Position numbers and translations under genes: made by a program
Shown: in pieces, positions 19,801-50,190 of the stretch
Position numbering within the stretch: position 1 is the stretch's first letter
Layout of the letters: the number at the start of each line of letters is the position of its first letter
DNA from: Harmothoe impar
Lineage: Eukaryota; Annelida; Polychaeta; Phyllodocida; Polynoidae
Reading direction: 5' to 3'
Assembly: GCA_947462335.1 (NCBI GenBank)
Contig: OX381710.1
Location: 65,591,303-65,655,302 of the forward strand
DNA: 64,000 nucleotides
Notes under the pieces: generated by a model
What the model saw: only the letters and a program-made list of their open reading frames with translations
Told to the model about the DNA's origin: nothing
Database searches by the model: none

Positions 19801-21114
19801 GTAAGGCATTTTGAAAGGCTGTGCATCTCCAGTATTGATAGAATGCAACACTTTGTCGGTTCGGCCTAACGGCTCCCCCTCCACTTGCCATGCATCCTGA
19901 TACTTCACTACCAGCCTCCTTAGAGAATCGAGATCCATCCGATCCGTCAGATCCGTTTCGGATATCATTTTCTCGAGTCCCTCACTCAACGGGGTCGGAG
20001 AAGGGTCACCCTTCATGCTCACCTGTCCAGCAGACACTATGGCCTCACTGGTGAACACCTTCCCCAACACTGTATCTTTCTTAAGATACTGTGGTTCCAA
20101 CCCGGGGTTGGAAACCGGCACTACGGTCCAAGCACCGTCCCCCACCAGGGTATCCATGCCTGTCAGACCGATGCTTCCCAACATGGCCACATCCGGTTCC
20201 ACAACTGCTTCTTCCTCTCTCCTAAGCCCCTTGCTTCGGACCAGCACGTCACACGTCTGTCCGGGAGGAATCTTAACAGTTTGGACCACCGTTGCCACTG
20301 TCGATACTTGTCGGAGCACACATTGCTCCACCGCACGGTACGGGTGCTCTATTCGGAGTACCCCTGTACCAGGATTCAGGACCGCGTCATACAACGCCGA
20401 AAAATCCAACCCCAGTATACCGTCGTCTGCAATATCCGCAATTGTGGGAGAAGCCACATACTCCTTCCCTCCAATTCGGACCGGTATGAACGCGCGCCCA
20501 TACGTCTGCATACTTGACCCATCGGCTGAACAGGCGTTTACCCTCGTTTTGAAGTTATCACGACTGTCCGGCATAAGAGCATAGAATTTGGAGGAGATAA
20601 AGGAGTGGCTGGCTCCCGTATCTACTAAAAATTCGCCCGCCCTACCGGCCACAGTAACAGACACATACCACCGCCTCCCCCCCAGCGGAGACGGGTTTAC
20701 AGTGAAGCGTTTGAAATCCTTCGGAGCAGCCAGATCAAGGCCATGTTTCTTCAAATGGTCGAAACATGGATGATCCGGGGAAAGCTGGGTACTCCCTACC
20801 CACACGGTGTCTGTGACAGCCGCAACTTCCTCGTTCCTATCCGTAATGGGCCTCCCTGCCTCATTGCCGGGCAACTGATGGACTGGAATGTTAATCAGGC
20901 CGGCATCCGAGCCCCTCAAGCTCGAAGCCACCCCTGATTCCCTTCCTGTCTTCTGAATTCCACTAGGCTCTACCTCTCTGGTATGTTGGCGTACTTCATC
21001 TCCAGGGGTTGTCCGCTCGCCTTCTCGGACTACCCCCTCTAGTTTCCCTCCTTTCCGGGAACTTTCGGACTCGGAGCTGTACACTCCGCGGCAAAGTGAC
21101 CGATCTCTAAGCAC
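16873..21114 (-). CDS. pol: Pol polyprotein of LTR element copy B, intact
   Basis: A 1413-codon open frame. Domains: retropepsin-like aspartic protease (DTGAS, residues 165-169, with ILGLDF flap partner near 233), reverse transcriptase (about 435-680; FCIDYRRLN, TLDLQSGYWQ, YLDD at 585-588), RNase H (DTDASNES near 737), integrase with an HHCC finger (HSTSGHFGKKRS...CPACC, about 1000-1045) and DDE core (AVDII, HSDQGREFES, SDGQVERFN), then a basic C-terminal tail ending in RGAVT. The domain order RT-RNase H-integrase is that of Ty3/gypsy (Metaviridae). The frame has no ATG in its first part and overlaps gag by 76 bases in the -1 frame, so it is expressed by frameshifting. No chromodomain is seen. 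Confidence 0.96.
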   Translation of the reverse strand: MLRDRSLCRGVYSSESESSRKGGKLEGVVREGERTTPGDEVRQHTREVEPSGIQKTGRESGVASSLRGSDAGLINIPVHQLPGNEAGRPITDRNEEVAAVTDTVWVGSTQLSPDHPCFDHLKKHGLDLAAPKDFKRFTVNPSPLGGRRWYVSVTVAGRAGEFLVDTGASHSFISSKFYALMPDSRDNFKTRVNACSADGSSMQTYGRAFIPVRIGGKEYVASPTIADIADDGILGLDFSALYDAVLNPGTGVLRIEHPYRAVEQCVLRQVSTVATVVQTVKIPPGQTCDVLVRSKGLRREEEAVVEPDVAMLGSIGLTGMDTLVGDGAWTVVPVSNPGLEPQYLKKDTVLGKVFTSEAIVSAGQVSMKGDPSPTPLSEGLEKMISETDLTDRMDLDSLRRLVVKYQDAWQVEGEPLGRTDKVLHSINTGDAQPFKMPYRRLPLGKKAVVEEQVKTMLEQKVIVPSTSPWSSPVQMVTKKDGSIRFCIDYRRLNGVTKKNAYPLPRIDETLDSLGGNQWFCTLDLQSGYWQIGMKEEDKEKTAFTSHIGLYQFELMPFGLCNAPATFEAMMETLLSDLLWRKCLVYLDDVIVFGKTFEECALNLGEVLERIRSNGLTLKPKKCELFRKSMVYLGRIISTEGVQADPTKLETVETWEVPKGPKDIRSFLGFCSYYRDFIPGFSRVSQPLQRLSHWTPGRKKEPFPWGMEQNEAFKEIKALFRTTPVLRYPTEKGHFILDTDASNESIGAALSQIQDGVEVPLAFASNSMNKAQRNYCTTKRELLAVVVYTKKFRHFLYGGNFTLRTDHSALRWLLNFKDAEGMIGRWLNHLSEFGLENSHIQHRAGTKHINADCLSRRPVRRCVRPECGDCGAHNAVVASVRLPYDGLLQNLLDWSTDTIRTYQMADPTIARLRELVPTGVCPVRPEISLENREMRRFLAQFHELEVRDSLLCRWKTCPGKRRVLQMVIPAAMRKDILYYCHGHSTSGHFGKKRSLERLSRRYYWPGRSGDLLRWIETCPACCLGKPGPGLGKLPLQQELFGVRFARIAVDIISGVKPTPKGNTCMMVVSDYYTKYTRVYPLEDHTAATCAEALVKGWILHLGAPLMLHSDQGREFESKLWAAMCHQLAICKTRTNPYRPQSDGQVERFNRTLIQVLKPLVNSHMDDWDDQCEFVVHAYNNTVHTSTNCTPNLLVFGEDLIMPADLVFGVVGISPEAPCTVLFVESLRERFKFAYETVRAHLLKAANWQKVGYDTGLKLRRFVVGDRVIRLHEPLCNVKLANNWDGPHTVVKCISQTTVLIQSEAGRIRTSHVARLRAWAGRELTPETEVEKGTSEAKFVPVEGVSADTPKRVVRKKPQKTVKKKVSAGEGRRARKTKIKAGVLVKNESPSARLREVNGKPVRRSPRLVARGAVT

Positions 21115-23717
21115 CTATAGCACTTAGCGGTCCTCCGATTGATCTTCCTTCTGTTAGGCTGTGTAGCCCCCTGAATGGAAGTCGTCATCTTTTCAAACAG
21201 CGCTGTGAAAAACGCTGCGTCCATCACCGGAGCCTTCGGCTCTGATGACTCCCTTTTCGGAGGGGGGTTTCCACCCCCTTCCGGCTTCTTACTCTTCCAC
21301 GGCGGTTTAGAGGAATTTCCATTCCTCTTGAACTGGGCCGCTGAAGCTATTGCCCCCTCCTCATCACTGCCCGAACCATCAGACTGTTCCGGAGAACATT
21401 CTATAATGGCCGAGGCCCGGGTAGGCATCCGGTCCCCTAACAGTGACTTTTTGAGAGCATGTATGTCGATGGCCTTAAAAAGGTCATCTAGTGACGTATC
21501 TGCTCTCCACGTGTCATACACCGTTTGTTGTATGTCTGGGTCTCTCAGTCCGGCAACGAACTGAGAGAACAATTCCTTAGAAAATAAGGCATCATGGATT
21601 CCTGAAGCAGGGTGTACCTTCTTCAGGAGTCTCATCAATGCAAGTCCGAAAACCCTTGGAGCTTCGTTCTTGCCTTGCACACGCTTCTTAAAAGCGACCA
21701 TCGGATCGATCCGTGCGGAATCTCCGTACAGGATGGTTCCGATTTCAACGAGCTGTTTGAAAGTTCCGCGGGGTCCGCATTCCTCTTTCCACTGCTCAAC
21801 TGCCATGAGACCATCTCCCATGCGTAATCCCTTACAAACGTACGGGATTGCATCCTGTTGGTCCCACCCGCTGAGGTTTATATCCTCAACGGTGGCTCCC
21901 AACCAATCTTCCCAAGAATTCTTCTGCCAGTAGGGAAATGGCTCGCTAGCTATGCGTCTAGCAGCATTGGACGAACCTCTAATTTTAGAGGTTATCGCTA
22001 GACATTTAGAAATGGATGCTGACGCGTCCTTTTCCGCACCTACATTGTGCAATCCGATCCCCGCTATTGCGGGATTCGTATCGTACAATTCTTGCAATTC
22101 TGTACTCAGCATTGTTCTCCTGGGAGCCTTCTTCGGACTCTTCGTACCAGGAGTCGCCCCCGGAGTAGCGCCCGTGGTTGGCACACTATTCTGTCTGTCC
22201 AGAAAAGCCTGGTAGGTCCCATACGACACTATGTCCGTAGTGGGGTCTACGCCCTGTCCGAACCACCAGTTCTTCTCCTGATCAGTCATATACTGACACT
22301 GCTGGGCCAGAGCAAGCAATCGTTGATGTTCTGACTTCTCTTTCTCCAGCTCCTTGGCCTGTTTCTCAGCCTCCTCCTCCTGCTGAGCTTTTTCCAGTTT
22401 AGCTTTAGCAGCCTCTCCGGCAGCTCGGAGCCCTTCCTTTCGAGCCCTCAGAACCGCCGCTTCCTGCTCCGCTAACTCCTCTGCGAGAGCAGCGTTTTCC
22501 TTCATTCGTTTCTGTTGCTGCTCTAAAGCAGCCTGCTGTTTGCGATACACGTCTCGCCTTTCTATTTCCAAGTTTTTCTGCTCCTGGAACAATATGTTTG
22601 CTTGGCATTCTCGCCATTGCAACAAACTTGAAGGAGTCAGGTCGGTTTTCGCCGCCTTATCCTGTTCGGCCGCTTTTTTCAAGCGGACCGCGTCTAGTTC
22701 TTGCTCGTCCACTCTCAACTGCAATCGTGGACTCCGAACCAACTCCGACAATGGTCTTCCCCTGCCTACTGAGGCTAGACTGGTCGGGGCTGCAATTACC
22801 TGCTTTGGTATCGGACGGATACCACTGATCCCTACCCTCGGTGAGGAATCACCCCCCCTGCCTCTGCCCCTGGATCGCCCCACTCGGAGTGGTCGTCCCG
22901 GTGTCGAGGTTGACAAGGCAGGTTCAATGGTTACTCCACGTCCCATGGGCTGATTGGGAGTGTCTGTAAAGCTCATGTAATGGAGGCCTTCCGGACTACC
23001 ATTGTCCGCAGATGCGAATGAGGTACTGCTGTCGTGCATACTTTCTCGCGTCTCTGATAAAAACTGTTGTAAAGCAGCTCTTTTTGCTTTCAGAATGTCG
23101 CACTCCGTCACTAGACTTAGGCGGACCTCCTGTAAGTCCTCTGTGTCCCGAACAATGGCTGATCGGGCCCCTTCTGCTTCATGCATTACAGCGTCTCGAG
23201 CTGCGCAAATGTGGTTCAGCTCCGTGTTTGCCTGGACAAACTCAGACCGGATCCCTCGTAGGTCCGCTTCTTTCTGATCGTATTCCGCTCGGACTCTGCT
23301 GAGGGATTGTACCAGCTTTTCATTCTCCTCCAACAAGGTAGACAGCCTTGCATCCTTTTCCTTGATCTTGGAAGCTCTGTGTGTGACTGCACCTTCCAAT
23401 GCAATCAGACTGCTTTTCCATTCATTGGATTGCTTCTGAATGGTCAACAATTCCATTTGAGCCATCTGTACACGTTCCTGCACTCGGGCTTCTCTCATGT
23501 CGTCAAAGCGACGCTCCTCCAACAGGGCAAACCTCCTCGGAGTCGGCGCGGCTGACCTTGACCCACCAACGTTGAACAAGGACAAGTTCATTTCTTCTAA
23601 TGAGCGGCTCATTATGGTAGGACCCCTGGGTCCTCGTGCTGCGTCTGTTCCGGATGGAACATCCGCCCTACTGTGGGTTTCTGCCTCATAACTGGCATCT
23701 AGCCCCTCCGGTGACAA
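21039..23717 (-). CDS. gag: Gag of LTR element copy B, intact
   Basis: An 892-aa protein. The start (ATG at 23717) lies about 92 bases inside the primer site. The N-terminal half is rich in Glu, Arg and Gln, with long coiled coil (about 30-170 and 330-460). A capsid-like region follows (about 600-770; TILYGDSARIDPMVAFKKR, FSQFVAGLRDPDIQ). A single CCHC knuckle, CYRCLEIGHFAAEC (about 866-879), lies next to the C-terminus. It is long for a gypsy Gag because of the coiled-coil extension. The stop codon directly follows the slippery heptamer. It should bind genomic RNA and form the particle. Confidence 0.94.
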   Translation of the reverse strand: MSPEGLDASYEAETHSRADVPSGTDAARGPRGPTIMSRSLEEMNLSLFNVGGSRSAAPTPRRFALLEERRFDDMREARVQERVQMAQMELLTIQKQSNEWKSSLIALEGAVTHRASKIKEKDARLSTLLEENEKLVQSLSRVRAEYDQKEADLRGIRSEFVQANTELNHICAARDAVMHEAEGARSAIVRDTEDLQEVRLSLVTECDILKAKRAALQQFLSETRESMHDSSTSFASADNGSPEGLHYMSFTDTPNQPMGRGVTIEPALSTSTPGRPLRVGRSRGRGRGGDSSPRVGISGIRPIPKQVIAAPTSLASVGRGRPLSELVRSPRLQLRVDEQELDAVRLKKAAEQDKAAKTDLTPSSLLQWRECQANILFQEQKNLEIERRDVYRKQQAALEQQQKRMKENAALAEELAEQEAAVLRARKEGLRAAGEAAKAKLEKAQQEEEAEKQAKELEKEKSEHQRLLALAQQCQYMTDQEKNWWFGQGVDPTTDIVSYGTYQAFLDRQNSVPTTGATPGATPGTKSPKKAPRRTMLSTELQELYDTNPAIAGIGLHNVGAEKDASASISKCLAITSKIRGSSNAARRIASEPFPYWQKNSWEDWLGATVEDINLSGWDQQDAIPYVCKGLRMGDGLMAVEQWKEECGPRGTFKQLVEIGTILYGDSARIDPMVAFKKRVQGKNEAPRVFGLALMRLLKKVHPASGIHDALFSKELFSQFVAGLRDPDIQQTVYDTWRADTSLDDLFKAIDIHALKKSLLGDRMPTRASAIIECSPEQSDGSGSDEEGAIASAAQFKRNGNSSKPPWKSKKPEGGGNPPPKRESSEPKAPVMDAAFFTALFEKMTTSIQGATQPNRRKINRRTAKCYRCLEIGHFAAECTAPSPKVPGKEGN
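21042..21048 (-). promoter_or_regulatory. Programmed -1 frameshift site GGGAAAC
   Basis: In gag frame the sequence reads G GGA AAC TAG, a perfect X XXY YYZ slippery heptamer right before the gag stop. Pol is in the -1 frame and open across this point (reads GGG AAA CTA GAG). A downstream stimulatory structure was not established by hand. Confidence 0.85.
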
Positions 23718-32217: not shown

Positions 32218-34685
32218 CTACACATAACTAATTTTGGTTGGATTTTCAAGGCTTTCATTGACACTATTTTTATAAACAAGGCAAGTCTCTCTTAAGAGGC
32301 CAATATTGAATAAAACATATTCATATATCTCGTTGCTCTCCCCTTTGGTTTTGATTTGGACAAATTCTTCTAAATGCACATCACAGATGGGTGTGGGGAG
32401 CCATTGTCTTTTTTCTCGGAAGTAAGTCTCTCTCATGTGCAGCTTCACCAGCTCATCGAGTGTACACCCACTCAGAGCCATATAGAGGCTGTCGGTATCC
32501 ATCTGACAGAGGGTGTAATCGCGACGATCTATAAACCTGTCTAAGAAGTTGAATGTAAACTCCAACATTTTCAGTTTTGCATACTGATACACCATGAACC
32601 CCATTTGGATAGGGAGGTTGTTGTTGACTGGCTTGGGTTGAAGTTCGACCTCGTAAAGGTTGCCGGTTATTTCGATACCTTTCTTGAAGCGCCATGAATT
32701 TGCCAACAGTTCAAAAGCCCGTACTCTCACATACGTGACCCGGCTGTGTCTCTGTTTGTTGCAGATTGTCTTGCCATATGAACTATTCAACTTATCAACT
32801 TATCAACTTATAGCAGTCGGAAAGGACTTTTTCGTCTGGGTTAGAATCACCCCCACGGCGAGCTCATGTCACCTCATCAGCAAAATCAGCAAAGATGGCT
32901 TTCGGGAAATATTGGACGACTAGATGTACTTTGGTTACTGTTAAACCGTGCGCCACATACCATTTCAAAAGCGGTGTGCCTAACAGAAGTTTCTCGCCAC
33001 AATAGCTGCCAATCAAGGATCGCTGAGGTGTGTTTAACAAATTTTCTCTGTTCACAAAATCTCTCATGTGCAGACCGATATCATCTTTGGAGATTGTAAA
33101 TTTTTTAAGATTGGTGTCATCTCCTCTGAAAAGTGTTCCAGTAAGTGTTGGGGAGTCTCAATGTCCACCAGAAGCAAACCGAACAGGTGATCGGTTGTGA
33201 CAGCAGATATAAGTTCACGTACAGTCATCGGGCGACTATCCACCTTGAGCTCGTTGACTTTCCAGTGAGACTTAGAGTTGAAAACTTTTGGGTCTCTTTC
33301 TCGCATGCTTCGCCACTCACACTCCCATACCTTAATCAGGATGTAACCTAGATTTTTCAGATACAAACTCGCTCTCTTAGTTCTCGAGCGTCTGCGCTCT
33401 CTCTGCGAGGAGCAGGGGTATCGGTGCGGCGGTATGCAAGTGTGAGCATGAAACCAACACCCATGGAACTGAAAGACGGTTTGGGAACCCGGGTGGAAGC
33501 CGTTGACACGCTGGCGTCGGGAGCCTAATGCAACCTCACCACCGTTGAATGCATGAAGCAATGTTACTGAGTGGGCGTGTTCCATGTAGCGTAGCTACTC
33601 CAAAGCCACTCTCGAATGTCTGGTTTTGATGTCTCTCTCTGGACTCCGGACGATGTAATAACCGTGCAATGTTTCTCACTCATACACTTCAAATAGAGAC
33701 TGTTTGCATCTAAGCCCACGGTGTGTTGATAAACCTTCGCTTGCTCTCCGTATTTAACCTCTCTGATACGGGTTACACCATTTTCATGGTACCTGTGGAA
33801 GATGATGGAGGGTCCGCCCATTAGATTGGTCTGAAGCAGAGAGTGAAGATGAGCATGGGCTCGGTTGAACAGGATGTAGGGGGTGTCATTGTTCTGGAAC
33901 AGGAACCGTAGCGTTAGACCCGCAAGGGAGATCCCGTCTTTGAACATGTCGATCCCTCGCTCTCTGAAGAAGTGAGCGTGGTTATTGAGAGCTTCAACAA
34001 ATGGTTCCACATCTTTGTTGTTGTAATAAACTAGGTAATCCCTGAAGTTTTTCATTTTTTGCTCATGCCAAACCTTTTTACAACTCTCATAGTCAATCTA
34101 GGAGATGTGTCGACCCGTCAGCTTATTGTAGAACGCAGACTTGGGCGGTAGGGTGGTGTTCTCCAGTTTTCTGACAGATGTCAACCAGTCCTAGGGTAAG
34201 TGACCCTTACACTCAATCTTGGTGAAAGCCAGCAGGTAGTTCTGGTAGTTGTAACCCGCTGCCAAATAGTTCACAACAGTGCGTTTGGTGTAGACAGCCA
34301 TATACTGGTTGTGTCTCTTGATGACACTGAAATACTCTGATTTCTGTTCTGAAGAGAAAAATTTGGGAAGGTGGACATTAATCAAGTTCAAGTCATAGCG
34401 ACCCGAGTTGAAACCCACTACGGGGACTTGTTGTATATAGTGCAAGAAGCGCCGCTTCAATACAACTAACGGATGTCTACACATGAGCCGGTCACTGTCA
34501 GTGTCACATTTCTGAAGCTCCTCAAAGACGGTAGCCCGAGCTATTTTAGCGTCTAGTGCGCTCAACATCGGTCGGTAGCGCTCCAGTACTGCTAGACCTA
34601 TCGTTTTAGCCTTGTCGTTAATGTAGTTCAACACACGGTCAAGTAAGGGGTCCGACTCGCCATCAGACTGTCGGACAAAGCACAC
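32218..34685 (-). pseudogene. Protein-primed family B DNA polymerase, fragmented
   Basis: Pieces in several minus frames follow the family order. At 34685-34191 an exonuclease-type motif NSGRYDLNLI is present. At 34055-33564 come LMGGPSIIF and GLDANSLYL (polymerase motif A). At 33585-33064 there is FHGCWFHAHTC. At 33067-32864 a conserved QRSLIGSYCGEKLLL block appears. At 32790-32218 come NSSYGKT (motif B) and MDTDSLYM (motif C, catalytic Asp pair). Frame changes occur near 34100, 33570, 33065 and 32800. Nearly the full length is represented, so it decayed by small indels and stops rather than by large loss. It would have replicated the element's linear DNA. Confidence 0.87.
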
Positions 34686-38479: not shown

Positions 38480-38910
38480 AAGCCCCGGGGGGGGGGCACT
38501 TAGTATATTTTGTATACACAGGTGTGCGGCTGGCGAGGGTAGTTTTTCAACTAAATCTCCCTAGCAAGGGTCCTATTTCAGAGAGAAATGTCCCTAACAA
38601 GGGTCTACTTTTGACAAAATCGCCCTAGCAAGGGTCACTTTTTCACCACAATGACCTGTTTTTCACCAAAATGTCCCATTTTTGCCCATTTTTTTGCCAA
38701 TATTTTGAGGACACGGGTAAAATTTCTCAGTAAAATTACTCATCCATTGTACATTTTGTGTTTTTCCTAATCAAAACTAGGACTTTTCGGCCGAAAGTGC
38801 CCTAGCAAGGGTAGGTTTTGAAGCAAAAGCTCCCTAGCAAGGGTAAGGGTTGTCATTGGTCCAGCTGCACACCCATATCAGAAAAAAATTCAAGTACCCC
38901 CCCGGGGGAG
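38480..38910. mobile_element. MITE with CCCCGGGGGGG ends and CCCTAGCAAGGGT iterons
   Basis: The left end has CCCCGGGGGGGGGGCACTT and then GGTGTGCGGCTGG. The right end is its diverged complement (CCAGCTGCACACCCATAT...AAGTACCCCCCCGGGG). The interior has five copies of (T)CCCTAGCAAGGGT (near 38567, 38597, 38625, 38800, 38831). No ORF. The CCCGGGGGGGTACTT end type is seen in several marine animal genomes. Confidence 0.65.
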
Positions 38911-39395
38911 AGGCAGGACCATTACATCCTCTTTCGGCGCAACATCCTGCTTAGCAGGATAGCTGCACCCCCTCCCAGCGGCCGGTGGATAACGTTGGCG
39001 TGGGGGGGGGCGGCTCACAAACTTGCTATTTTGGAGTCAGTCCTTGAGAAGGGGCCGCAGTTTATGAGACAATATCTGGTCACTTTTGAGGCTTACCTAA
39101 AAACAAACGAATATAAATCCAACCTACCTACCCTAGATTTTCAGACTATTATCCTAAAACACCCTTTCGGTCTTATTGTAAGAAATCCCATTATATACAT
39201 TTTGTAGATATATTTACAGCCCAATCATGGCCGCCATCGAGAGCTAGACGCACCAGGAGCGCCCTCCGTGTATATTATGGATTAATTTAGGTTAGACAGT
39301 TAGGGACTGGATTATTTTTGTCAGACACCACTGTGAAGTGGTTGTGAACATTTGTGGATACGTTTTGGAGTTATACTCCACCTCATCTCGGAATT

Positions 39396-40082
39396 ATGCC
39401 CTCTAGAGGGTCTAAAGGGTCAAGACAACGCCGGAAAACCAAAAGGCGCGGGTTGGATGTATACTTCACCCCAGAACCCTGGCCGCTCAGGCCAGCTGAC
39501 CCGCACCTAGTACCCAACCAACCTGATACAGGCACTCCCAAGAGACAACGGTCCTTTGAAGGTGTGTCAAAACTGATTGATGCAAGCCCCACCGAATTAT
39601 CGCCTATCTACAAAAAAAATAGGTACGAAATTCTCCAAACTGAGGGCGTTGCTAAGGACGCCATTTCACCTGTTGTCAGTACACACACCCCTCTCAACCC
39701 GCCCCAAGGTCCCTCAGTCCAGGCCCAGAAGGCTCTGATTGACCTACCTCCTGGATCGTTACGCATGAACACTTTAACTAGTGGGGATTTAGACCCAAAC
39801 ATGCAGTTACCTCCACCTGACCTGACTGAGGCCCTATCACACGACAACACAGTCAAGGAAGGTGATTACGTTGTGAGACTCCCCAACAAACAAGGGGAAA
39901 AGGACACCCCCCTCACAGACTTTATAAATGAGTTAAACATGACTATTAACTCAAGCAGTGCAAACTATCATCTAGTATACCCCGATGTCAGAAATGCGGC
40001 CGACTCGCCCCCCCCCCAGTCCTCCCGATGGTCCGGAGACCGGGGGTGGGCGGGTGGGAGTACGGATGGGTGCACAGGGTGA
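39396..40082 (+). CDS. LINE ORF1, N-terminal part
   Basis: A basic start (MPSRGSKGSRQRRKTKRRG), then Pro/Ser-rich sequence with KKNRYEILQTE, PPGSLRMNTL and a possible short helix (DTPLTDFINELNMT). An upstream in-frame ATG exists at 39354. The frame runs to 40082, but from a run of ten C at about 40008-40017 the coherent sequence moves to the frame of 39985-41520. The two parts are probably one ORF1 protein split by a homopolymer length change. Confidence 0.6.
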   Translation: MPSRGSKGSRQRRKTKRRGLDVYFTPEPWPLRPADPHLVPNQPDTGTPKRQRSFEGVSKLIDASPTELSPIYKKNRYEILQTEGVAKDAISPVVSTHTPLNPPQGPSVQAQKALIDLPPGSLRMNTLTSGDLDPNMQLPPPDLTEALSHDNTVKEGDYVVRLPNKQGEKDTPLTDFINELNMTINSSSANYHLVYPDVRNAADSPPPQSSRWSGDRGWAGGSTDGCTG

Positions 40083-41520
40083 GTCACATCACCCCTTCCC
40101 CTACCCACCACCCGCGCACCACCACCACACCACTGGTCCGCCTCCTGTCACCTCCTACTACTACCCACCCCTGTCCTGTCCCTCGGAAGGTACTCACGAC
40201 CGGGGTTACCCACCTATAACCACAACAGCCACCCTCTACCAGCCACCACCCTGGGCCCCGCCCCCCTGGTTCTCAGCTCAACCCGACAGAGATCCAAATG
40301 GAGTGATTGCACTCAAGAAGATGGTGAGTGCAGTTGAATACATACAGGATCATATGGCTGACAAAGATGTTTTGAATACAAAACTCAACACAATCACCTC
40401 GACCATCGACAAACGAATATCTGGTTTAGATGATCGTCTGAGAGCCTGCACTGATGAGCAGAAATTGGACAGAGCGGCATTATCAAAGGAGATAATTTCT
40501 GCCCGTGCTGACATGGACCAAAAGATCACATCTGCTCATAGTGTCCTCACCAAAGAGATAAAATCGGTTAGTTCTGAAGCTGACAACAAACTGCAGGGAG
40601 CCACTGCGCCCATTGTTGCCCGCCAAACTACAATGGAAAATAAATTAACAGCCCACATTGCCGAGGTGAATCAGCTTAAGTCAAAACTGATCGCCATGGA
40701 GCTGAAGCAGTCCAAAGATACCATAGACACGGCATCCCGTGGTAACCACGGTTATGCTGCCTCCTTGATACATGGGGTACCAAAGGGAGTGCCCACACCC
40801 ACCCTGAGTGCCCCGCCCCAACCTGTGTCACAGCTTGGAGCCACCCACAACATAGTTATTGTTGGCCTACCGGAGGAAAAAGATGAGAACATTTTTAACA
40901 CCTACCAGCGCATCATAAACGCCATTGGTGTCCCAGTTGACAGCCGTGATCTCTCATCTGTATCAAGATTCGGCAAAGAGGGCAACAGGCCGAGACCAAT
41001 CATGATATCATTTAAATGCCCCAACATCCACCAGGAATTCCTCCTCCTACGCAGACGCATTAGAAAACTGGGGGAGGAAGTGTATCTAAATCCTGATGAA
41101 TCACGTGACACCAGAATCTTCCGTTACAAACTGCGTACAATTTTCAACCACATACGGGACTGGGATGTGGGAGGAGAGCTGTTAATTGATGGTCTGAAAA
41201 TAAATGGCCACATCTACCCTCCCACCCAAGCAGGTATCAATACCATCCCAGATGTTTTCAAACCATCTGACATGGATTGCACCAAGCCGGGTCACCCTTA
41301 TGATCCCAAGACCCTCAAAGCTCAGGAGCTTAAAAAACCCAACCCAGTCACCTGTGGTCAACCAGCTGTTGTAACAGCTAACCTCAACCAACCCCCACCC
41401 CCACCCCCACGCCACCGCCCACCCCCCCCATGTCATAATTTCCCGCCCCCCCCCCATACAACAACAATCACCTACCAGCCACAAGACCGCCCAGACTTGA
41501 TGCAGCCCCCGTACAGCTAA
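39985..41520 (+). CDS. LINE ORF1, coiled-coil and RRM-like part
   Basis: Up to 511 codons in this frame. A Pro-rich linker, a coiled coil (about residues 105-250), then an RRM-like region (NIVIVGLPEEKDENIF, RPRPIMISF, about 287-365) and a C-terminal-domain-like stretch (EEVYLNPDESRDTR). The tail is again Pro/His-rich. This coil-RRM-CTD order is that of ORF1p chaperones in L1-, I- and CR1-type elements, which bind element RNA. The last codon overlaps the next ATG (TAATG at 41518-41522). Confidence 0.78.
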   Translation: MSEMRPTRPPPSPPDGPETGGGRVGVRMGAQGESHHPFPYPPPAHHHHTTGPPPVTSYYYPPLSCPSEGTHDRGYPPITTTATLYQPPPWAPPPWFSAQPDRDPNGVIALKKMVSAVEYIQDHMADKDVLNTKLNTITSTIDKRISGLDDRLRACTDEQKLDRAALSKEIISARADMDQKITSAHSVLTKEIKSVSSEADNKLQGATAPIVARQTTMENKLTAHIAEVNQLKSKLIAMELKQSKDTIDTASRGNHGYAASLIHGVPKGVPTPTLSAPPQPVSQLGATHNIVIVGLPEEKDENIFNTYQRIINAIGVPVDSRDLSSVSRFGKEGNRPRPIMISFKCPNIHQEFLLLRRRIRKLGEEVYLNPDESRDTRIFRYKLRTIFNHIRDWDVGGELLIDGLKINGHIYPPTQAGINTIPDVFKPSDMDCTKPGHPYDPKTLKAQELKKPNPVTCGQPAVVTANLNQPPPPPPRHRPPPPCHNFPPPPHTTTITYQPQDRPDLMQPPYS

Positions 41521-42545
41521 TGTCACTACACGTGAAGAAACCCATGGAGGCCCGGCCCCCTACCAAGGAGCCCCATCCCCCACCCCCTCCCACCTCACAC
41601 AAGGCACCGCGCCAAAAATCTAACAGTGCACATGTACCCCACCCCCCAAAAGCACATGTCAACACGCCAGACCCGTCAATCATTCTGGTCGCCTCTCCCC
41701 CTCCCATGATGCAAGCCACCCCTCTCCTGAGTTCCACTCCCAATACCAATCCCACAAGAGGTACGAGGGATGCTGGAGGAGTCCCCACCGACTTCTTACT
41801 GCCACCAACCTCATACATAGGTAGCTACAAACAGAATAAAGAACACATCATGCAGACCCCTATAGGCCTAGCCTTCAGTGGGGAAAGTGCCTACCTTAGC
41901 AACTTCTTTCCGGCACTCATAACTGTCTCTCTGGATGGTTATGAAAAGGTCTTCCAATCAGTGGAGCAGGCCTATCAGTACTGCAAAGCCATACATGTCA
42001 ATGACTTCCCTGCTGCCGCAGCCATCCTGACTGAGCCCCGAGCCACTCTCAATAAATCCAGGGGCAGTTCTATAGTTACTGCTGGATCCGACTGGGCCCA
42101 CCGTGCAGTACCACTCATACGCAAATATGCCAATGCAAAATTCGTGCAGCATCCCAGAATGAGACTCAGACTATTCAATACCGGAAATCAACAGCTGCTA
42201 GAATCAAGCCACTGTGAATTCTGGGGAATAGGAATCAGCTACCTTGATCCACACCTGCCCGCCCTCACCTCCTATAAGGGGGTAAACATGATGGGCAACA
42301 TCCTCATGGACATCCGTTATGAGCTATCAGTACTATACAAGTACAAGGCCCCCAATCCGAGGGACCAACCACAGCCCAATCACAACATGCGCCGGTTACG
42401 TCATGCGGCACCACCTGTGCGGTATGCAGGTCACCCCCCACTCTACCGAGAGGACCTACACCTGAGCAACCATGCCGACTCAGCCACTGCCAAACCATCC
42501 AGGGACCAGGACAGTCGCTTCTACTACCAACCACCACCACACTAG
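41520..42545 (+). CDS. NADAR-domain protein within the LINE
   Basis: 341 aa. Residues 1-110 are Pro-rich linker. Residues about 114-273 are a NADAR (YbiA/DUF1768) domain: LAFSGESAYLSNFFP, then FQSVEQAYQYCKA with Glu149 in the catalytic position, KFVQHP..R..LFNTG, LLESS..FWGIG, and GVNMMGNILMDIR. All main NADAR motifs are kept, so enzyme activity is likely. Known NADAR proteins are N-glycosidases that remove ADP-ribose, including from guanine in DNA, or process riboflavin precursors. The ATG overlaps the ORF1 stop (TAATG) in the -1 frame, as in LINEs that use termination-reinitiation. The C-terminus after 280 is rich in Pro and His. The domain call is strong; its job in the element is unknown. 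Confidence 0.87.
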   Translation: MSLHVKKPMEARPPTKEPHPPPPPTSHKAPRQKSNSAHVPHPPKAHVNTPDPSIILVASPPPMMQATPLLSSTPNTNPTRGTRDAGGVPTDFLLPPTSYIGSYKQNKEHIMQTPIGLAFSGESAYLSNFFPALITVSLDGYEKVFQSVEQAYQYCKAIHVNDFPAAAAILTEPRATLNKSRGSSIVTAGSDWAHRAVPLIRKYANAKFVQHPRMRLRLFNTGNQQLLESSHCEFWGIGISYLDPHLPALTSYKGVNMMGNILMDIRYELSVLYKYKAPNPRDQPQPNHNMRRLRHAAPPVRYAGHPPLYREDLHLSNHADSATAKPSRDQDSRFYYQPPPH

Positions 42546-42714
42546 ACTTAGGTGTATGTATAAATGCATATGTAGCCAGCTGTCCCACAATCGTGGCTAG
42601 TTAGGCTTATAGTCAATACTGTGTCCAGGACCACTGGTGCTGCTATATATCTACTACACTTATACAGTGACGAGATCGGACATTAGGCCTGTAAACCTGT
42701 AACACCTTATAACC

Positions 42715-43332
42715 ATGACGGTTCTGCTTATTGGTGACTCCAGGGTCAGATACCTGGGTACCTACCTACAGCCACAGGCTTATTATAATGTAGTGTGCCG
42801 AGGAGGCGCAACACTAAACAGGATCAGGTCAATAGTATGCTCTTTATTGAGGCAGCCTCACACCTACACCTCGGTGCTCATTAGTGCAGGTATATGCGAC
42901 CTGTTATCTTATGATGACTGGGGCCAATCTTGTCTTGCGCCCCTCCCACCTCCCACTGAAATCAAACGCTGGTTTGGTAATGAGCTGAAGCAGATCACAA
43001 ATGATATCCTCTCTATCAACCCAGACTTGAAGGTCACCTACGTGCCACTTTATGGTGTGGACTTCACCACCCTGAATAATAACTGGCCGTATTGTCACCC
43101 CGACCAGGACTTAGTGGAAAAGGTATTACCCTTTGTCAACTCAGCAATCTACAATGAAAACATGCACAGACATATGACCACCCCTAAGGTGGATCCACTA
43201 GTGCATGAAAGACAATCCAGACGGCACTCTTACAAACATCACTACGACCTCCTGGATGATGGTCTCCATCCTACCCCAGATCTGTGTGCTTTAGTGGCTG
43301 GAGCCATAATGACCATCCCTCACACTAGTTAA
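42715..43332 (+). CDS. SGNH/GDSL esterase-like protein of the LINE
   Basis: 205 aa. Block I is LLIGDSRVRYL (Ser9 as nucleophile), block II the glycine of CRGGATLN, block III ISAGICDL where the usual Asn is Cys, block V DDGLHPTPDL with the Asp and His of the triad. CR1-clade ORF1 proteins carry a comparable esterase domain, thought to act on lipids or membranes. Here it is a separate ORF, 169 bases after the NADAR stop. The Asn to Cys change in the oxyanion position may reduce activity. Confidence 0.75.
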   Translation: MTVLLIGDSRVRYLGTYLQPQAYYNVVCRGGATLNRIRSIVCSLLRQPHTYTSVLISAGICDLLSYDDWGQSCLAPLPPPTEIKRWFGNELKQITNDILSINPDLKVTYVPLYGVDFTTLNNNWPYCHPDQDLVEKVLPFVNSAIYNENMHRHMTTPKVDPLVHERQSRRHSYKHHYDLLDDGLHPTPDLCALVAGAIMTIPHTS

Positions 43333-43389
43333 TAACTGTATTGACTCATCCACAGCTTGAATCATATCTGTTCATACATGTCGATAATG

Positions 43390-44095
43390 CTCTGATAATG
43401 TCTGATACCTTCTCTGTCGATCATGCACCTAATGAGATGCTGGCGATAATTATGATATTTGTGCACTTATACTTATGTAAACTGAAAATTTACCATTATT
43501 GATTATTAGTTGACTCACTCCCAACAAGAATCACATTTATTCATACATGGGTTCATTGCTCTGATAATGTCTGATAACCTTCTCTGTCGACCATGCACCT
43601 AGTGAGATGCTGGCGATAATTAGGTTAATTATGCACCTTTTATTTATGTGAACGAAAAATTGCTGTAAACGTGCGTATTTTCGCTGGTACAAATTTTCGC
43701 GGATTTGCTTTAGAATACAATTTCGCTGGGATTTAAATTCGCTGATATTGAAATATTAGTTATATAGCTATATTGGATAAATTTTCGCTCTGTACATATT
43801 TTCGCGGATTTTCAAATCCGCGGGGTCCGCGAAAATGTGTACAGCGCGAAATAAAATACGTTTACAGTAACCACTATTGACTAACCCTGATAACACTCTC
43901 TGTCGACCATGCACCTAATGAGATGCTGGCGATAATTAGGTTAATTATGCACCTATTACTTATGTGAACCAAAAATTAACCACTATTGACTAACCCTGAT
44001 AACCTTCTCTATTGACCAAGCACCTAACGAGATGCTGGTGATAATTAGGTTAATTGTGCACATATTATTATTATGTAAACCAAAAATTGACCATT
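43390..44095 (+). repeat. Tandem repeat in the LINE spacer, about 110-bp unit, four copies
   Basis: The unit contains TGATAACCTTCTCTGTCGACC, ATGCACCTAATGAGATGCTGG and CGATAATTAGGTTAATTATG. Copies start near 43400, 43568, 43886 and 43996. The second copy is interrupted by the MITE at 43662-43868. A longer version of the unit (from GACTCA.CC to TTACCATTATTGA) is shared by the first two. It could be a promoter or RNA element of the LINE; none is proven. Confidence 0.75.
43662..43868. mobile_element. MITE rich in TTTTCGC motifs
   Basis: The inverted ends GCTGTAAACGTGCGTATTTTCGC and its diverged complement at 43826-43868 flank about 200 bases with repeated ATTTTCGCGGA. It cuts one tandem-repeat unit between AAAAATT and AACCACTATTGA, which are adjacent in the uninterrupted unit, so it inserted after the repeat arose. 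No clear target duplication. Confidence 0.65.
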
Positions 44096-44686
44096 ATATT
44101 CGCTATATTCTACTACATTAAATACCTTGGCACCTAGTGAGGTGTCTAGGTTTGTATTGCTTTGCTGTGTACGCTTACCCTGACTATCACATAATGTGCA
44201 CACCACATAACATGCTAAAATGCTAATTGCTATGTACAAATGCACCATCCTGACGTCAGATATTGTATACTTGATACCAGATTGACCAGTACACCTGCAT
44301 GTGTATCCCCGTTCTCCTTGTATGTCGATAAAAGTTGAATGTCACCTAATGAGATGATCATTCACAGGCATCTTGGCATCATATGATGCCCTATTGTGAC
44401 TTTGTTTACAGATATTTAGTGAATTATCTCGGCAACAAAGTCACCCTATGCTAAAATAAATTGTTAATCATACTATTAATGCTAACACTGTACAGCAACC
44501 ACTGGTGTTTCGCCAGTACATCAACTTCAGATGTGTTGCTTAAAATTAACATAGATTAGCTTAGCTTACCTTAACTATCAAATTAAATTACTGCCCATGG
44601 CAATGTATGTATATATATATATATATAGCCGACTTATATTAATCCATAATAAATAAACATGGTTGTGCCTCTACACTCTGAGCTAA

Positions 44687-44878
44687 ATGATGCCAACAAA
44701 CCTTGCTGACCGCAATTCGACACCTGACACTCTTTGTCACACCGCCTTCCTACAAGGCGACTTCCTCCCCCTCATACTAACTCTCCTGTACATATACTTT
44801 ATTAACACCATCTTCCATATGGCATATGATACCAGTAATATTCTACCAACCAATCTGACCAGGGCATTGCGAAAATGA
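44687..44878 (+). CDS. Small hydrophobic ORF overlapping the EN-RT start
   Basis: 63 aa with one likely membrane segment (LPLILTLLYIYFINTIF, about residues 28-44). Its TGA overlaps the ATG of the EN-RT ORF (ATGA, 44875-44878). It could be a real peptide, or a leader that delivers ribosomes to the RT start. A TATATATATATA run lies about 75 bases upstream. No family is known. Confidence 0.4.
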   Translation: MMPTNLADRNSTPDTLCHTAFLQGDFLPLILTLLYIYFINTIFHMAYDTSNILPTNLTRALRK

Positions 44879-47784
44879 CCACGGCCCCCAAGGACTTTGT
44901 CGGCTTCAAAGGTCTAAAGCTAGGTCATTACAATATCAGGAGCATAGATCTAAAGTTTGACCAGCTGGAGAAGATCGTGGTCATGTTTGATGTGTTTATG
45001 GTCAGTGAAAGCTGGCTATTAGAAGGCTACGCAGATAGCAAACTCCATATCAATGGCTACAAATTCCTCAGATATGACCGCATTGTTGACAAAGTGGGGG
45101 GTGGGCTGCTAATGTATATATGTAACAGAATGGCCCCATATTGTAATATAGTCCCCTGCCTAATGAAGTCAAACACAGACATTGAGATTATGGTAGTAAA
45201 CTTTACTCAAGACAAGCATCGCCTAACCTCATTTGTACATGTCTACAGGCCACCTAGTGGCAGCTATGTTAACTGTATTGACACACTTGAGGAAATATGT
45301 AAATCACCACTCCTGGATGGCAGGGAAATGTGGGTAATTGGTGATATTAATGTGAATCTTTTTGAACCTGATGATTGCAAGACAAAGTATTATAAAAAGG
45401 CATTAGGAGAACTAAATTTGCAGGATTATATCTATAATATAACTAGACCTAATCCAAAAGGGCCTGGGGGCACCTGCATCGACTTAATAGCAACTGACTG
45501 TGATATTGTCATGCATGCTGGTACCTTGCCTCACTTAATTAGTGATCACTTGCCCATTTATGTCGTAAAAAAGAAGGCCAAAGAAAAGTATGACATAATC
45601 AAGGTCCGTGGTAGGTCCTATAAAAATTATGATTACTCCGACTTTAGTGACTATCTATTACACATTGACTGGTCACCTTTCTACGGTGCCGACGGTGTCG
45701 ACGCTAAATGGGATTTCATGCTTTCTTCTATAACAGATTATCTAGACCTGCACTGTCCCATAAAAGACATGCAATTTAAGGACATGCACAAGCCCTGGAT
45801 AACTAAACATATCTTGGAATCCATTTATGAACGTAATGAATATATGTTAGAGTACTGCTCCGGTGGCAAGGCAAACCCTGATCTACTGGAAAAGGCCAAG
45901 CAAGTTCGCCGTGATATTAATGCTATGTCAAAATTATCTGAGGAAAACTTTTATAAGAATAAACTAGAAGAATTGTCCCACAACCCGTATAAATTCTGGA
46001 AGGAGCTAAATAAACTCTTAGGTAGAACAGGCAGTGGTAAATCTGAAATCATCCTAACCAGTCACACGGATGGCAGTGAAATAAGGGACACAGCTGTCCC
46101 AGACTATGTCAATGGCTTTTTCACTAATATAGGAAGCGACTTGTTTGACAAACTAGGCGATGTGCCTACTGTCCGAGCAAAATGTAAACCCATGTCCTCC
46201 TCTCACCCTATAATAGACGAGAGCTCGATATCTTATGAAGAAGTCATTAAGCTCCTAAAGGACATTGAGGTACACAAATCCAGTGGTATAGCGGATCTGA
46301 ACACTGCAGTGCTCAAGGATGCCCTCCTAATAATGGCTCCCCAGTTAACCTATCTAATCCAATATTGTCTCCATAAAATAAAATTCCCTGCTGAATGGGC
46401 CTCTGCCCGGGTCGTCCCCCTCCCTAAGTCTGGAGATCTGAAACAGATTGGCAACTGGAGACCCATATCCCTACTGCCAGTCCCCAGTAAAATTATGGAG
46501 CGCATTATTTATAGACGCATCTACTCTCATTTAGAAGAAAATGCACTACTGGCTGGTTCTCAATATGGATTCCGCACGTCCAGGGGAACTAATGACGCTG
46601 TGTTCAAACTGGTAAATGACATCTATTCAGCTAAAGACAAAAACGAATACATGGTCACGTGTTTCCTGGACGTGCGGAAGGCTTTTGATAGCATCCATCA
46701 TGGTGAATTACTAGGACGGATGAAAGATTTTGGTCTACCCGAAATATACAGTGATTGGCTGTATGCATACTTGGATCAAAGAAGCCAGGTAGTTACCTGC
46801 AATAACCATGTATCTACTAAACTACCCATCTCATTTGGAGTACCCCAGGGCTCCATTCTGGGTCCTTTATTGTTCATTTGTTTTGTAAATAATATGCCTG
46901 AAATTGTGAAAAATTGTAAGGTAATTATGTATGCAGACGATGTTGTCTTCTATAAATCTCATCATTCATTATCAGCTGCCGTAGATCTTGTCCAGCAAGA
47001 CGCTACCCTAATTCATAACTGGTTTGCCACAAGTGGACTTTGCATAAATACTGAAAAAACTAAAATTGTTACCTTTGGCAAGCAGCATATCGACATTGAA
47101 AATATAAAAATTACAATGGGAGTCACAACCCTACAGGTCTGCCCTCAGTATGAATACCTAGGTATAATTCTGGATAGCAACTTTACTTTAGAGAAATCTG
47201 TGAACAAATCTGTGTCCACTGCTAATCTAAGAAATGTCATGCTGCGCAAAATGAAACGGAAAATGTCAACACACACGGCTCTGTTAGTGTACAAACAGAC
47301 CATACTGCCTGTTCTAGAGTATTGTGGTTATTTGTTTAATGGCATAGTTAAAACTCAACACAAGCGCCTACAGTTGTTGCAAAATAGGTGCCTGCGCACA
47401 TGCCTGAATATCAGACTGAAATATCATGTGGTTGATTTACACCAAGATGCAAATATAAACTACCTGTGTGTACGATACGACCTGCAACTCTTGTTACTCA
47501 TATACAAATATGTCTATAGTGCTAATTACGATAATGAATCACTAGGCCTAGTGTTCCAAACCACCCCAGCTGAGGGGATCAGGACGAGATCCTCGAACAC
47601 TGGCTTATTACAATACCCCTCTTCTGTTAAAACTGGGTACAGAAAGAGCCCGTTATACAGAGGTATAGACATATGGAACAAACTGAATACCTCATGTAGG
47701 ATGGCCACCAATAAAGAGGTCTTTAGAAGCAAAGCTCTTGCAAGTCTAGTGTCTATATTTAGAGCCTTACATAACTTGAACTGA
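44875..47784 (+). CDS. LINE ORF2: AP endonuclease and reverse transcriptase
   Basis: 969 aa, intact. The endonuclease is at about 15-240 (LGHYNIRSID, SESWL, HVYRPPSG, WVIGDINVNL, SDHLPIYV). RT is at about 500-760 (RVVPLPKSGD, NWRPISLLPV, GFRTSRGT, FLDVRKAFDSI, GVPQGSILGPLLF, YADDVVFY with the Asp pair near 686). The C-terminal part (QLLQNRCLRT) is typical of jockey/CR1-group elements. No RNase H. It nicks target DNA and primes reverse transcription there. Being open over 2.9 kb, it is young. Confidence 0.92.
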   Translation: MTTAPKDFVGFKGLKLGHYNIRSIDLKFDQLEKIVVMFDVFMVSESWLLEGYADSKLHINGYKFLRYDRIVDKVGGGLLMYICNRMAPYCNIVPCLMKSNTDIEIMVVNFTQDKHRLTSFVHVYRPPSGSYVNCIDTLEEICKSPLLDGREMWVIGDINVNLFEPDDCKTKYYKKALGELNLQDYIYNITRPNPKGPGGTCIDLIATDCDIVMHAGTLPHLISDHLPIYVVKKKAKEKYDIIKVRGRSYKNYDYSDFSDYLLHIDWSPFYGADGVDAKWDFMLSSITDYLDLHCPIKDMQFKDMHKPWITKHILESIYERNEYMLEYCSGGKANPDLLEKAKQVRRDINAMSKLSEENFYKNKLEELSHNPYKFWKELNKLLGRTGSGKSEIILTSHTDGSEIRDTAVPDYVNGFFTNIGSDLFDKLGDVPTVRAKCKPMSSSHPIIDESSISYEEVIKLLKDIEVHKSSGIADLNTAVLKDALLIMAPQLTYLIQYCLHKIKFPAEWASARVVPLPKSGDLKQIGNWRPISLLPVPSKIMERIIYRRIYSHLEENALLAGSQYGFRTSRGTNDAVFKLVNDIYSAKDKNEYMVTCFLDVRKAFDSIHHGELLGRMKDFGLPEIYSDWLYAYLDQRSQVVTCNNHVSTKLPISFGVPQGSILGPLLFICFVNNMPEIVKNCKVIMYADDVVFYKSHHSLSAAVDLVQQDATLIHNWFATSGLCINTEKTKIVTFGKQHIDIENIKITMGVTTLQVCPQYEYLGIILDSNFTLEKSVNKSVSTANLRNVMLRKMKRKMSTHTALLVYKQTILPVLEYCGYLFNGIVKTQHKRLQLLQNRCLRTCLNIRLKYHVVDLHQDANINYLCVRYDLQLLLLIYKYVYSANYDNESLGLVFQTTPAEGIRTRSSNTGLLQYPSSVKTGYRKSPLYRGIDIWNKLNTSCRMATNKEVFRSKALASLVSIFRALHNLN

Positions 47785-48780
47785 GCATATCACTGTTATA
47801 CAATTATATGCATCTTATATATCTGTCCTTAAGAAGTAATATACTATGTCCTTCAATATACTTATCTATTATGTTACAACTACACACCTGATACTAACGG
47901 CTGAAAAAGTGCCGTCGTTCGTTTGTCTACCTGTTGCCACTATTGTAACTCTCATTGCTATCGTGTCTATATGTAATAACTGAGAAATTGCTCTGTTGTC
48001 TGTATTATCATACATCGTAAACTATCTCAACATAGCGATATGTTCTCATGTGTGACTGAAAAGTCACCCCTTATAGTTGTATCCGACTCATGCATATATA
48101 AACATCATAATCTATACCAGTTACTACAGTTCAGTCAATGTTGAGAACTATGTTATAAGTCATGGAATTCCATTGTCTGTATCTGTAATTGCTTTGGAGA
48201 TGTCAAATACCATCATGACTTTATGTGATATCAACATCAATCATGTATATATCTCCTTGAATTGTACTGTGTTTAGAAAATCATCTTATGAAAATAAACA
48301 CTTTATAAACTCAAAATACAGATACCAAATTTTAAAATGTCTGCAGCCAGTCTACACCTACAACTGAGTAACGCCAAACAACACCAATCTCTAAGATATT
48401 TCTATCATACGTCCACATTAAAGCAAATTACCCCAAATATCTGCCTGGTCCGACACATCCAATTAACTCAAAACCATTGATTTAGAGGAGATCCCTATCA
48501 TGGCCCAGAAACACAGACCATATTATCAGTGGGATCCCGGTTCTAGACGCCCTGGAAAAAACTGCCTGAGGGCCCGCTTTAGAATTAGCATTGTGTACAC
48601 CAGTGTGATTCATAATTGCATCTAAATCCTGCAGTAGTGACACAAATTAAGTACCGACAGCCACATCATACATTAAAAATCATAATTGCATTAGTACTTA
48701 GCTAGCTATTCTACACTATACACATTATGGTATCCAGTGTAAGGAAAACTTCTGAGTTAAACAGAGCTATACAACAGGGT
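47785..48780 (+). other. LINE 3' UTR and flank
   Basis: AT-rich and non-coding. The 3' end of the LINE was not located; no poly(A) or short tandem repeat tail is evident, so the element limit of about 48400 is a guess. Confidence 0.35.
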
Positions 48781-48941: not shown

Positions 48942-49054
48942 AATAATGTATGGATATCAGGCACTCGGAATTGTATATCGTATGATCGTATATACGCACT
49001 CATGCCTATATCATACGATATACAATTCCGAGTGCCGGATATCCATACATTATT
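48942..49054. mobile_element. Near-perfect palindrome of about 113 bp
   Basis: Arms of about 45 bp (AATGTATGGATATC, GGCACTCGGAATTGTATATCG and complements at 49007-49054) surround a short centre rich in CGTATATACG. One or two mismatches. Probably a small foldback MITE; it would form a strong hairpin. Confidence 0.75.
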
Positions 49055-50190
49055 GGTTAAATATACATTGGGGAGAGGGCATGATAGTGCAAAGCTAACT
49101 GCAAAGCCTACATTCCCTTACAGTAGGTATCCCAGGACGTTTGAAGATATTATTTTTGCACATGTAGAAACTAATTAGATTGATAGACCTTGTTAAAAGA
49201 GGAAAAACTGTTTTTATATGATACAGATCGGTCAAGCGGTTTAGATTTGGGAGCCATTTGAAAGTGTGATAATAAGGTCTGGACTTAGCCAAATTTGGCC
49301 CCTCTCCTCAAGCTCATTACGCATGCATTTGATAGGCATTCTGTAGCATCTGGGAAAGGGAATAAATTGTGTATACTGATTTGATCCTGATTACAGCATA
49401 TATCTCCTTATCTCAATGAAGAGTCAATGAGTTCAGACATTAGGTTTTATTTTTACAGGCCCTCAAAATTATGATATATTACATGTAAGTCATAGATTTT
49501 GCCCAGAACTATGCAAAATGTTGCAAGTTTGGTAGTGTATGATTTCACCAATATGTCAGATATCGTTTTGGTTCTCTGGGAATCCTTTCTAAAGGTATTG
49601 GAGATTGTGCCTATTTTTTACCTGTTCTAGATAACCAAGTTTGACTTCACTATTCTCATTCAAAAATGAAGAAAAAGCTAATTTCCCCAATGTCCCTGAA
49701 GAGTGAAAATGACTTAACTCCAAACCAACACTAGACAACTGTTGTTTCATATATCAAGTTGAATTATGTTATAGGTATAGATCAATATGGTATACTTCAG
49801 TTCCAAGCAATTTTTACCCATCAAAAGTATAACATAATACTGAGTGATCTGATGAAGATCATGAAATTCTCTGAAATTGCTCAAATATTGCTGATATCTG
49901 GCTATTTTATGGTACCTTAGGACAAATTTCTTCTTGACCTCTGAATCCAACTTTTAATATTGACCCATTTATAATATTCCTATAACGTAACAACATAATT
50001 ATGTAACTTTTAGGCCCATCACATGATGATTTGCAAATGCTGATATTGGAGTTTTCTATGCTGGATACAAATGGGTTTACAATTGATACAGTGTATTACA
50101 TTCGAATGGAATCACATGTATGAGGATCCTGAGGGGTGTATATATAATATATGTATTGGTATAGCTTGTTTTTTCACCTTTATAGTCAAT
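49055..50190. other. No supported feature
   Basis: AT-rich sequence. No coherent ORF, repeat or splice pair was recognised. Confidence 0.35.

Follow-up and report, generated by a model that had tools for sequence, protein, structure and literature searches.

The element and its surroundings

The window (the whole 64,000-nucleotide stretch of Harmothoe impar DNA that was analyzed) contains a retroelement whose open reading frames (ORFs) all lie on the + strand, at the coordinates of an earlier first-pass annotation (Table 1). Its sequence identifies it as a LINE by the following features: endonuclease (EN) and reverse transcriptase (RT) are encoded in one ORF, no LTRs are seen, and there are dispersed copies with a common 3' end, many of them 5'-truncated. 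The EN-RT ORF matches RVT_1 at 4.2e-41 and the endonuclease family PF14529 at 1.3e-5 (25.4 bits, slightly under the 27.4 cut-off), and its relatives in the same genome (1.51 Gb, used for all own-genome searches) are 60-71% identical to it, with one partial copy at 97%. The 3' UTR is common to four other places, which are 96-100% identical and all stop at the element 3' end given in Table 1; three of these four matches start only inside the 3' UTR. Of the 38 repeat families listed, the 20 largest include no pair of direct repeats on the two sides of the element. The 91-nt repeat copies in the spacer upstream of the EN-RT ORF have 73-93% identity to the reference copy.

Table 1. Coordinates in the window of the parts of the LINE.
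Feature	Position	Strand	Remarks
ORF1 N-terminal part, basic then proline-rich	39354..40082	+	242 aa; aligns with L041 ORF1 from residue 7
ORF1 core, predicted coiled coil and RRM-like region	39985..41520	+	511 aa; frame differs from N-terminal part
ORF1 C-terminal part with NADAR	41520..42545	+	341 aa; frame differs from core in window copy
NADAR domain proper, residues 123-269 of its ORF	41886..42326	+	Pfam and alignment to 8bau
Predicted SGNH/GDSL hydrolase ORF	42715..43332	+	205 aa; PF13472 match below cut-off
Non-coding spacer: four copies of 91-nt repeat and palindromic insert at ~43660-43870	43401..44086	+	
EN-RT ORF	44875..47784	+	969 aa; RVT_1 match
3' UTR and element 3' end	47785..48317	+	matches to other places stop at 48313-48318

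Several other features lie in the window. A ~310-bp dispersed repeat is present just 5' of the LINE (38600-38908; 39 other copies at 89-95% among the best 40 places), and past its 3' end are a hairpin (48942-49054; 45-nt arms that are 98% complementary and a 23-nt loop) and a ~480-bp dispersed repeat (49120-49600; 35 other places at 87-90% among the best 40). Two closely similar LTR-type elements on the - strand at 448-4965 and 16873-23717, which we take to be Ty3/Gypsy-like, have RT, RNase H, integrase and aspartyl protease domains; the large ORFs beside them (12882-16295 on the - strand and 4382-6181 on the + strand) have no Pfam match and look alike by eye. The fragmented ORFs at 32218-34685 on the - strand, three of which were tried in Pfam without a match, are reminiscent of the Maverick/Polinton type of DNA polymerase B.

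The first-pass annotation also named an SGNH esterase in the element. The 205-aa ORF is present, with the motifs GDS close to the N-terminus and DGLHP close to the C-terminus, but its PF13472 match (0.0021) scores only 19 bits against a cut-off of 32.9, and its SGNH name is weak and the least certain in the element. Of the nine other EN-RT loci L032-L040, six (L032-L035, L038 and L039) have a homologue of this ORF 5' of the EN-RT; Pfam gives no SGNH match for the L043 homologue. An AlphaFold2 model of the 205-aa ORF alone was too poor for use (mean pLDDT 41.1). If correctly named, its product may be a membrane-related hydrolase like the ORF1 esterase of ZfL2-1 (PMC3905857), which is likewise an SGNH-type hydrolase in a LINE. 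The esterase ORF1s described in PMC4120745 are a type of their own, reported there from vertebrate groups only, whereas in the window the predicted SGNH has an ORF to itself, next to an RRM-type ORF1.

The NADAR domain and its place in ORF1

A NADAR domain had been proposed to lie between the ORF1 sequence and the EN-RT ORF, and profile searches bear this out. The ORF in question matches PF08719 with an E-value of 5.8e-23 (82.4 bits, curated cut-off 35.1), TIGR02464 with 77.8 bits (cut-off 73.7) and phrog_1017 at 8.5e-26, and the solved Phytophthora NADAR structure 8bau is matched at 6.1e-5; a profile of nine relatives' ORF1s matches the same structure at 1.6e-28. For the active site we aligned 21 NADARs (the window's and those of 20 fetched loci, described below), using the numbering of the Phytophthora enzyme and taking the roles of active-site and ligand residues from PMC11543638. 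Window residues E149, K156 and E228 align with E43, K50 and E125 of 8bau. Positions E43, W89 and E125 are invariant in all 21, and K50 and K75 are each lysine in 19 of the 21, with arginine at K50 in both L1-type copies. R79 (pyrophosphate), Y84 (adenine) and D86 (proximal ribose) are replaced in most of the aligned domains, and R93 and D130 are variable positions at which the window has A and C; because these five residues are not conserved, ligand binding may differ from that of the Phytophthora enzyme. A glutamate at the E125 position marks the YbiA subfamily as opposed to the Asp and His subfamilies (PMC11543638), and it is found in the window (E228) as in every other aligned copy. The alignments thus place the window domain in the NADAR superfamily, YbiA subfamily, and guanine de-ADP-ribosylation is its predicted activity. 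AlphaFold2 prediction of the NADAR domain and one relative gave a mean pLDDT of 41.5, which is too poor for use.

In the first-pass annotation the NADAR ORF stood as a separate one, but is this true of the element or only of the copy in the window? It is particular to the window copy, since the relative L041 fuses all three ORFs in one frame: a single uninterrupted ORF1 of 1041 aa, with 64% identity to the window sequence in the NADAR region, that aligns lengthwise with the N-terminal, middle and C-terminal ORFs of Table 1. The window ORF1 is split by two frame changes and so runs over three frames. These changes fall, by eye, within C-rich, proline-coding stretches and could be due to mutation or assembly error; unless they are assembly errors, the window copy is probably not a working element. 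A TAATG stop/start overlap at 41520 was considered as a case of translational coupling and dropped; as ORF1 of the relatives reads through in one uninterrupted frame, the overlap is probably incidental.

The sequences indicate that in the relatives NADAR is the C-terminal part of one long ORF1. Among the best 118 NADAR matches of 6358 candidates, 105 have no in-frame stop, and 32 of these 105 lie in frames of at least 1000 aa. When the genome was searched with L041 ORF1 (best 44 of 19344 candidates scored), all 42 ORF1 loci found carried NADAR sequence, and 40 of the 42 the whole domain; this search favours full-length copies, because only the best candidates were scored. The window ORF1 core is homologous to ORF1 of L014 (7.4e-8), L016, L025 and L027, and the nine-ORF1 profile mentioned above, which includes these four relatives, matches in order coiled-coil proteins, LINE-1 ORF1p (2ykp/2yko, 1.2e-6) and NADAR (8bau). 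Pfam found no RRM in window ORF1 or L041 ORF1, and comparison of L041 ORF1 with solved structures gave NADAR as its sole match, so that the L1-type RRM appears by the relatives' profile alone. Among the Jockey-superfamily ORF1 types I-V of PMC4120745, the core of the nine relatives' ORF1s matches type II (coiled coil, RRM, CTD) by profile; the terms NADAR, YbiA and DUF1768 are absent from the main text of that survey of 448 elements. A different arrangement is seen at positions 2901-5465 of L020, where a NADAR frame and one stop codon are followed in the same frame by an endonuclease domain and then by RT; L020 is perhaps a third kind of element, with NADAR fused to EN-RT.

Among 5.8 billion proteins the 341-aa NADAR ORF had no match, which says little, because the length limits of that search bar short stand-alone NADARs and ~1000-aa ORF1s; the NADAR domain alone had one match among the 5.8 billion (P0001, 26% identical). 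Scans of viral contigs with the EN-RT, the NADAR and an alignment gave no match, and a scan of genome contigs gave two matches only (23-24% identical), both of them contigs from a Bathymodiolus symbiont record and probably host contamination.

Genomic copies, reverse transcriptase types and selection

In a PF08719 search of the genome, 150 of 3484 first-look candidates were scored; every one of the 150 exceeded the cut-off, and together they are distributed over the chromosomes. The highest Pfam scores (150-178 bits) belong to stand-alone NADAR frames of 183-268 aa, L003 and the cluster of three L004-L006 (C21 30.06-30.08 Mb), which are likely host genes. From the 150 we fetched 20 loci, hand-picked to cover different frame lengths and thus a non-random sample. 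Within the DNA read at each locus (6.5 kb on the 3' side and 3.5 kb on the 5' side), 19 of the 20 have a related EN-RT downstream on the same strand at a distance of 0.3-4.6 kb, and none of the 20 has one on its 5' side or in the opposite orientation; in the remaining locus, L019, the RT that follows is a different one (RVT_1, 4e-15). The converse search with the window EN-RT gave the best 47 of 22301 candidates, 39 of them without an in-frame stop, and 20 of these 47 copies, the window's included, have a listed NADAR (among the best 118) 1.0-4.9 kb upstream on the same strand; one further copy (C2:106.7 Mb) is preceded by an ORF1 that contains part of NADAR. The order ORF1-NADAR/EN-RT recurs in many copies. 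EN-RT copies lacking NADAR had been named as evidence against such an element, and 27 of the 47 indeed have no upstream NADAR among the 118 matches listed, but both of the two that were inspected upstream are 5'-cut: L036/L042 is without SGNH and NADAR, and L039/L043, which keeps SGNH and the ORF1 tail, is cut off behind the NADAR domain. Because LINE copies are often 5'-truncated, the lack of NADAR in these two is as expected. A further genome list, made with L026 as query, gave more NADAR frames (best 78 of 14240 candidates) and stands outside the 20/47 count.

Some copies are nearly identical. L011 and L012 lie on different chromosomes and share 99.05% identity across 5156 bp that include NADAR (L012 seems to be truncated inside ORF1); for L032 and L034 the identity is 99.69% across 5102 bp of SGNH sequence and EN-RT, a stretch beyond which their NADARs lie. 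The NADAR LINEs are thus many dispersed and recently copied elements in this genome. No target-site duplication of at least 6 nt was found in L012, the sole copy with both ends fixed (via its near-identical copy); L011, L013, L015 and the window element have 5' ends that are not fixed. L011-type copies terminate in a short (ATTGAA)-like repeat.

Do all these elements have the same type of RT? The RT motif obtained from the 20 fetched loci is GVPQGS in 15, GTRQGCCLSP in two (L023 and L030) and GVLQGG in one (L020), and none was obtained for L014 and L019. LINE-1 ORF2 protein is matched over both EN and RT by L030 (343 bits) and L023 (326 bits), whereas the window EN-RT matches it with 64 bits and in the RT only. 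By these comparisons the window RT is not L1/Tx1-like, and L023 and L030 of the same genome are L1-like; the motif GVPQGS-LGPLLF is a possible sign of the Jockey superfamily (CR1/L2/Jockey). The ORF1 core of the L1-type L030 is homologous to those of L011, L012 and L016 (6e-11 to 7e-10), and because ORF1 cores are homologous across RT types, one ORF1 module (coiled coil, L1-type RRM/CTD and NADAR) appears to serve different EN-RTs. ORF1 exchange among LINEs is already known (PMC4120745, PMC3905857), and this module may either have moved between the two RT types or have been inherited by both.

Trees of the NADAR and RT sequences contain the same family groups, {L011, L012, L013, L015, L025, L027}, {L021, L022}, {L024, L029} and {L023, L030}, and in both trees the window element joins L017 and L026, a grouping less well supported (92/93) by the RT sequences. 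The RT tree was made without L014 and L019, and both trees have unresolved deep forks and some long branches. The common groups are in keeping with long co-inheritance of NADAR and RT. In the NADAR tree the L1-type NADARs group weakly (84/83) with host-like and oomycete NADARs.

Calculation of dN/dS for the NADAR domain was attempted for ten pairs and gave a ratio in three: 0.10 for L013/L015 (dS 0.26), 0.09 for L018/L019 (dS 1.87, near saturation) and 0.07 for L024/L029 (dS 1.63, near saturation). Six other pairs are saturated at synonymous sites, and L011/L012 have no synonymous change in the domain, their ORF1-NADAR frame giving 0.70 from very few changes. The EN-RTs of L013/L015 gave 0.11. 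In the three pairs with a ratio the NADAR domain is under purifying selection; it is a real, conserved feature of a large LINE population.

Known NADAR elements and possible roles of the domain

The first-pass annotation knew of no NADAR in LINEs. PMC12477816 (2025) reports, via a Repbase query, NADAR in ORF1 of several Tx1 LINE families of Crassostrea gigas, so that the NADAR of the window LINE is not a first. The oyster elements resemble the window element in having NADAR in the LINE ORF1 protein, and the window element differs in its RT, which is not L1/Tx1-like, and in its extra predicted SGNH ORF; as far as that account goes, NADAR is reported in LINEs for Tx1 only. The same paper describes a lineage of Ectocarpus Gypsy elements, likewise retroelements with a conserved YbiA-family NADAR, but these are LTR elements in which the domain is at the N-terminus of Pol instead of in ORF1. 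No other report of NADAR in retroelements was found in the open-access literature among the top-ranked matches. The antitoxin of the DarT1-NADAR toxin-antitoxin system (PMC11543638) has the same NADAR residues (E43, K50 and E125 correspond to its E88, K95 and D171), but it is a free-standing protein of a bacterial operon and has Asp instead of Glu at the last site. As far as the literature search shows, what appears to be new here is the RT of non-L1 type, the scale, the use of one module with different RT types, the conservation of residues, the selection and the dispersed near-identical copies, and, within the same limits, the predicted SGNH ORF beside an RRM-type ORF1.

What might a LINE gain from such a domain? 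NADARs reverse guanine ADP-ribosylation on DNA (PMC11543638), and according to PMC11833690 they also remove ADP-ribose from guanosine bases of RNA, which no other hydrolase has been found to do. On balance we favour the view that the ORF1p of these LINEs, a predicted RNA-binding protein, carries a likely active guanosine-ADP-ribose hydrolase and so gives the element its own eraser on the RNP. ORF1p would coat the element RNA and bring NADAR onto the RNP; NADAR would there remove ADP-ribose from guanines of the element RNA or nascent cDNA; the modification would be a defence set by an ADP-ribosyltransferase of the host (or of a symbiont); and its removal would shield the element from that defence. 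A counter-host role of the LINE NADAR is thus plausible. The wider idea, that LINEs with two distantly related types of RT have in common a mobile ORF1 module tying a catalytic guanosine-ADP-ribose eraser to the RNP as a counter-defence, and that this would reveal an undescribed defence in animals, guanine ADP-ribosylation of transposon RNA or cDNA, is offered tentatively, and we doubt that all of it will hold.

The host side of this proposal was searched for in the genome. There are 52 PARP-domain matches, some of them clustered; the genes are fewer than 52, because the matches are exon pieces. Clusters of PARP catalytic domains lie at C12:66.18-66.32 Mb, C3:77.48-77.61 Mb, C1:20.13-20.26 Mb and C8:81.44-81.52 Mb, and several of the genome matches sit in open frames of 1699-3279 aa. 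PARPs are not known to modify guanine. The guanine-specific ADP-ribosyltransferase family PF22596 (of the pierisin/CARP-1/Scabin kind) had 0 matches in the genome, in a search that ignores introns and was made without a positive control. Guanine-N2 DNA ADP-ribosylating activity has been reported from six clams (PMC11209040).

The best of the other explanations, though in our estimate a rather unlikely one, is that NADAR is an RNA-processing or RNA-binding module of ORF1p, performing ADP-ribose/N-glycosidase chemistry on the element's own transcript without any conflict with the host. Processing of the RNA intermediate is what PMC12477816 proposes, and the nematode NADAR protein SNA-3, which acts in trans-splicing, is essential and needs its conserved NADAR residues (PMC9303266); taken alone, however, this explanation does not account for the NADARs of RNA viruses, phages and several retroelement classes (PMC9503650, PMC12477816). 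The first-pass annotation had proposed instead an action of the domain against PARP signalling at the nick of target-primed reverse transcription, for which the PARP-rich genome (the 52 matches, several in clusters) could be cited. We regard this as improbable, since NADAR is on ORF1p and not on the EN-RT (L020 being a possible exception) and since the tested NADARs leave phosphate-end ADP-ribosylation of RNA, including PARP14-made 3' ends, unprocessed (PMC11833690); this finding weakens the idea of an eraser of PARP marks at the nick, and a counter-host role is still plausible. It seems no more probable that the domain has no catalytic activity and steers the RNP as a reader of ADP-ribose: several ligand-contact positions do vary among the copies, but both active-site glutamates are kept in 21 of 21 across highly diverged families. 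Finally, that a host NADAR gene stands beside the LINE by chance, or was picked up once by the window copy only, can be dismissed even though host-like stand-alone NADAR frames exist (C19 and the C21 cluster), because the order recurs in many copies (same-strand pairing at 19 of 20 sampled loci and in 20 of 47 EN-RT copies), ORF1 and NADAR are fused in a single frame in relatives, and the RT and NADAR trees hold the same family groups.

The preferred reading remains that of an eraser carried on the RNP by ORF1p. The roles of NADAR in animals are open (PMC11125620), and the presence of NADAR on ORF1p in sampled LINEs of different RT types, its glutamates intact, makes nucleic-acid ADP-ribosylation against transposons in animals an experimental question. 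The catalogue of ORF1 architectures also gains an enzyme-bearing one, with coiled coil, L1-type RRM and NADAR.
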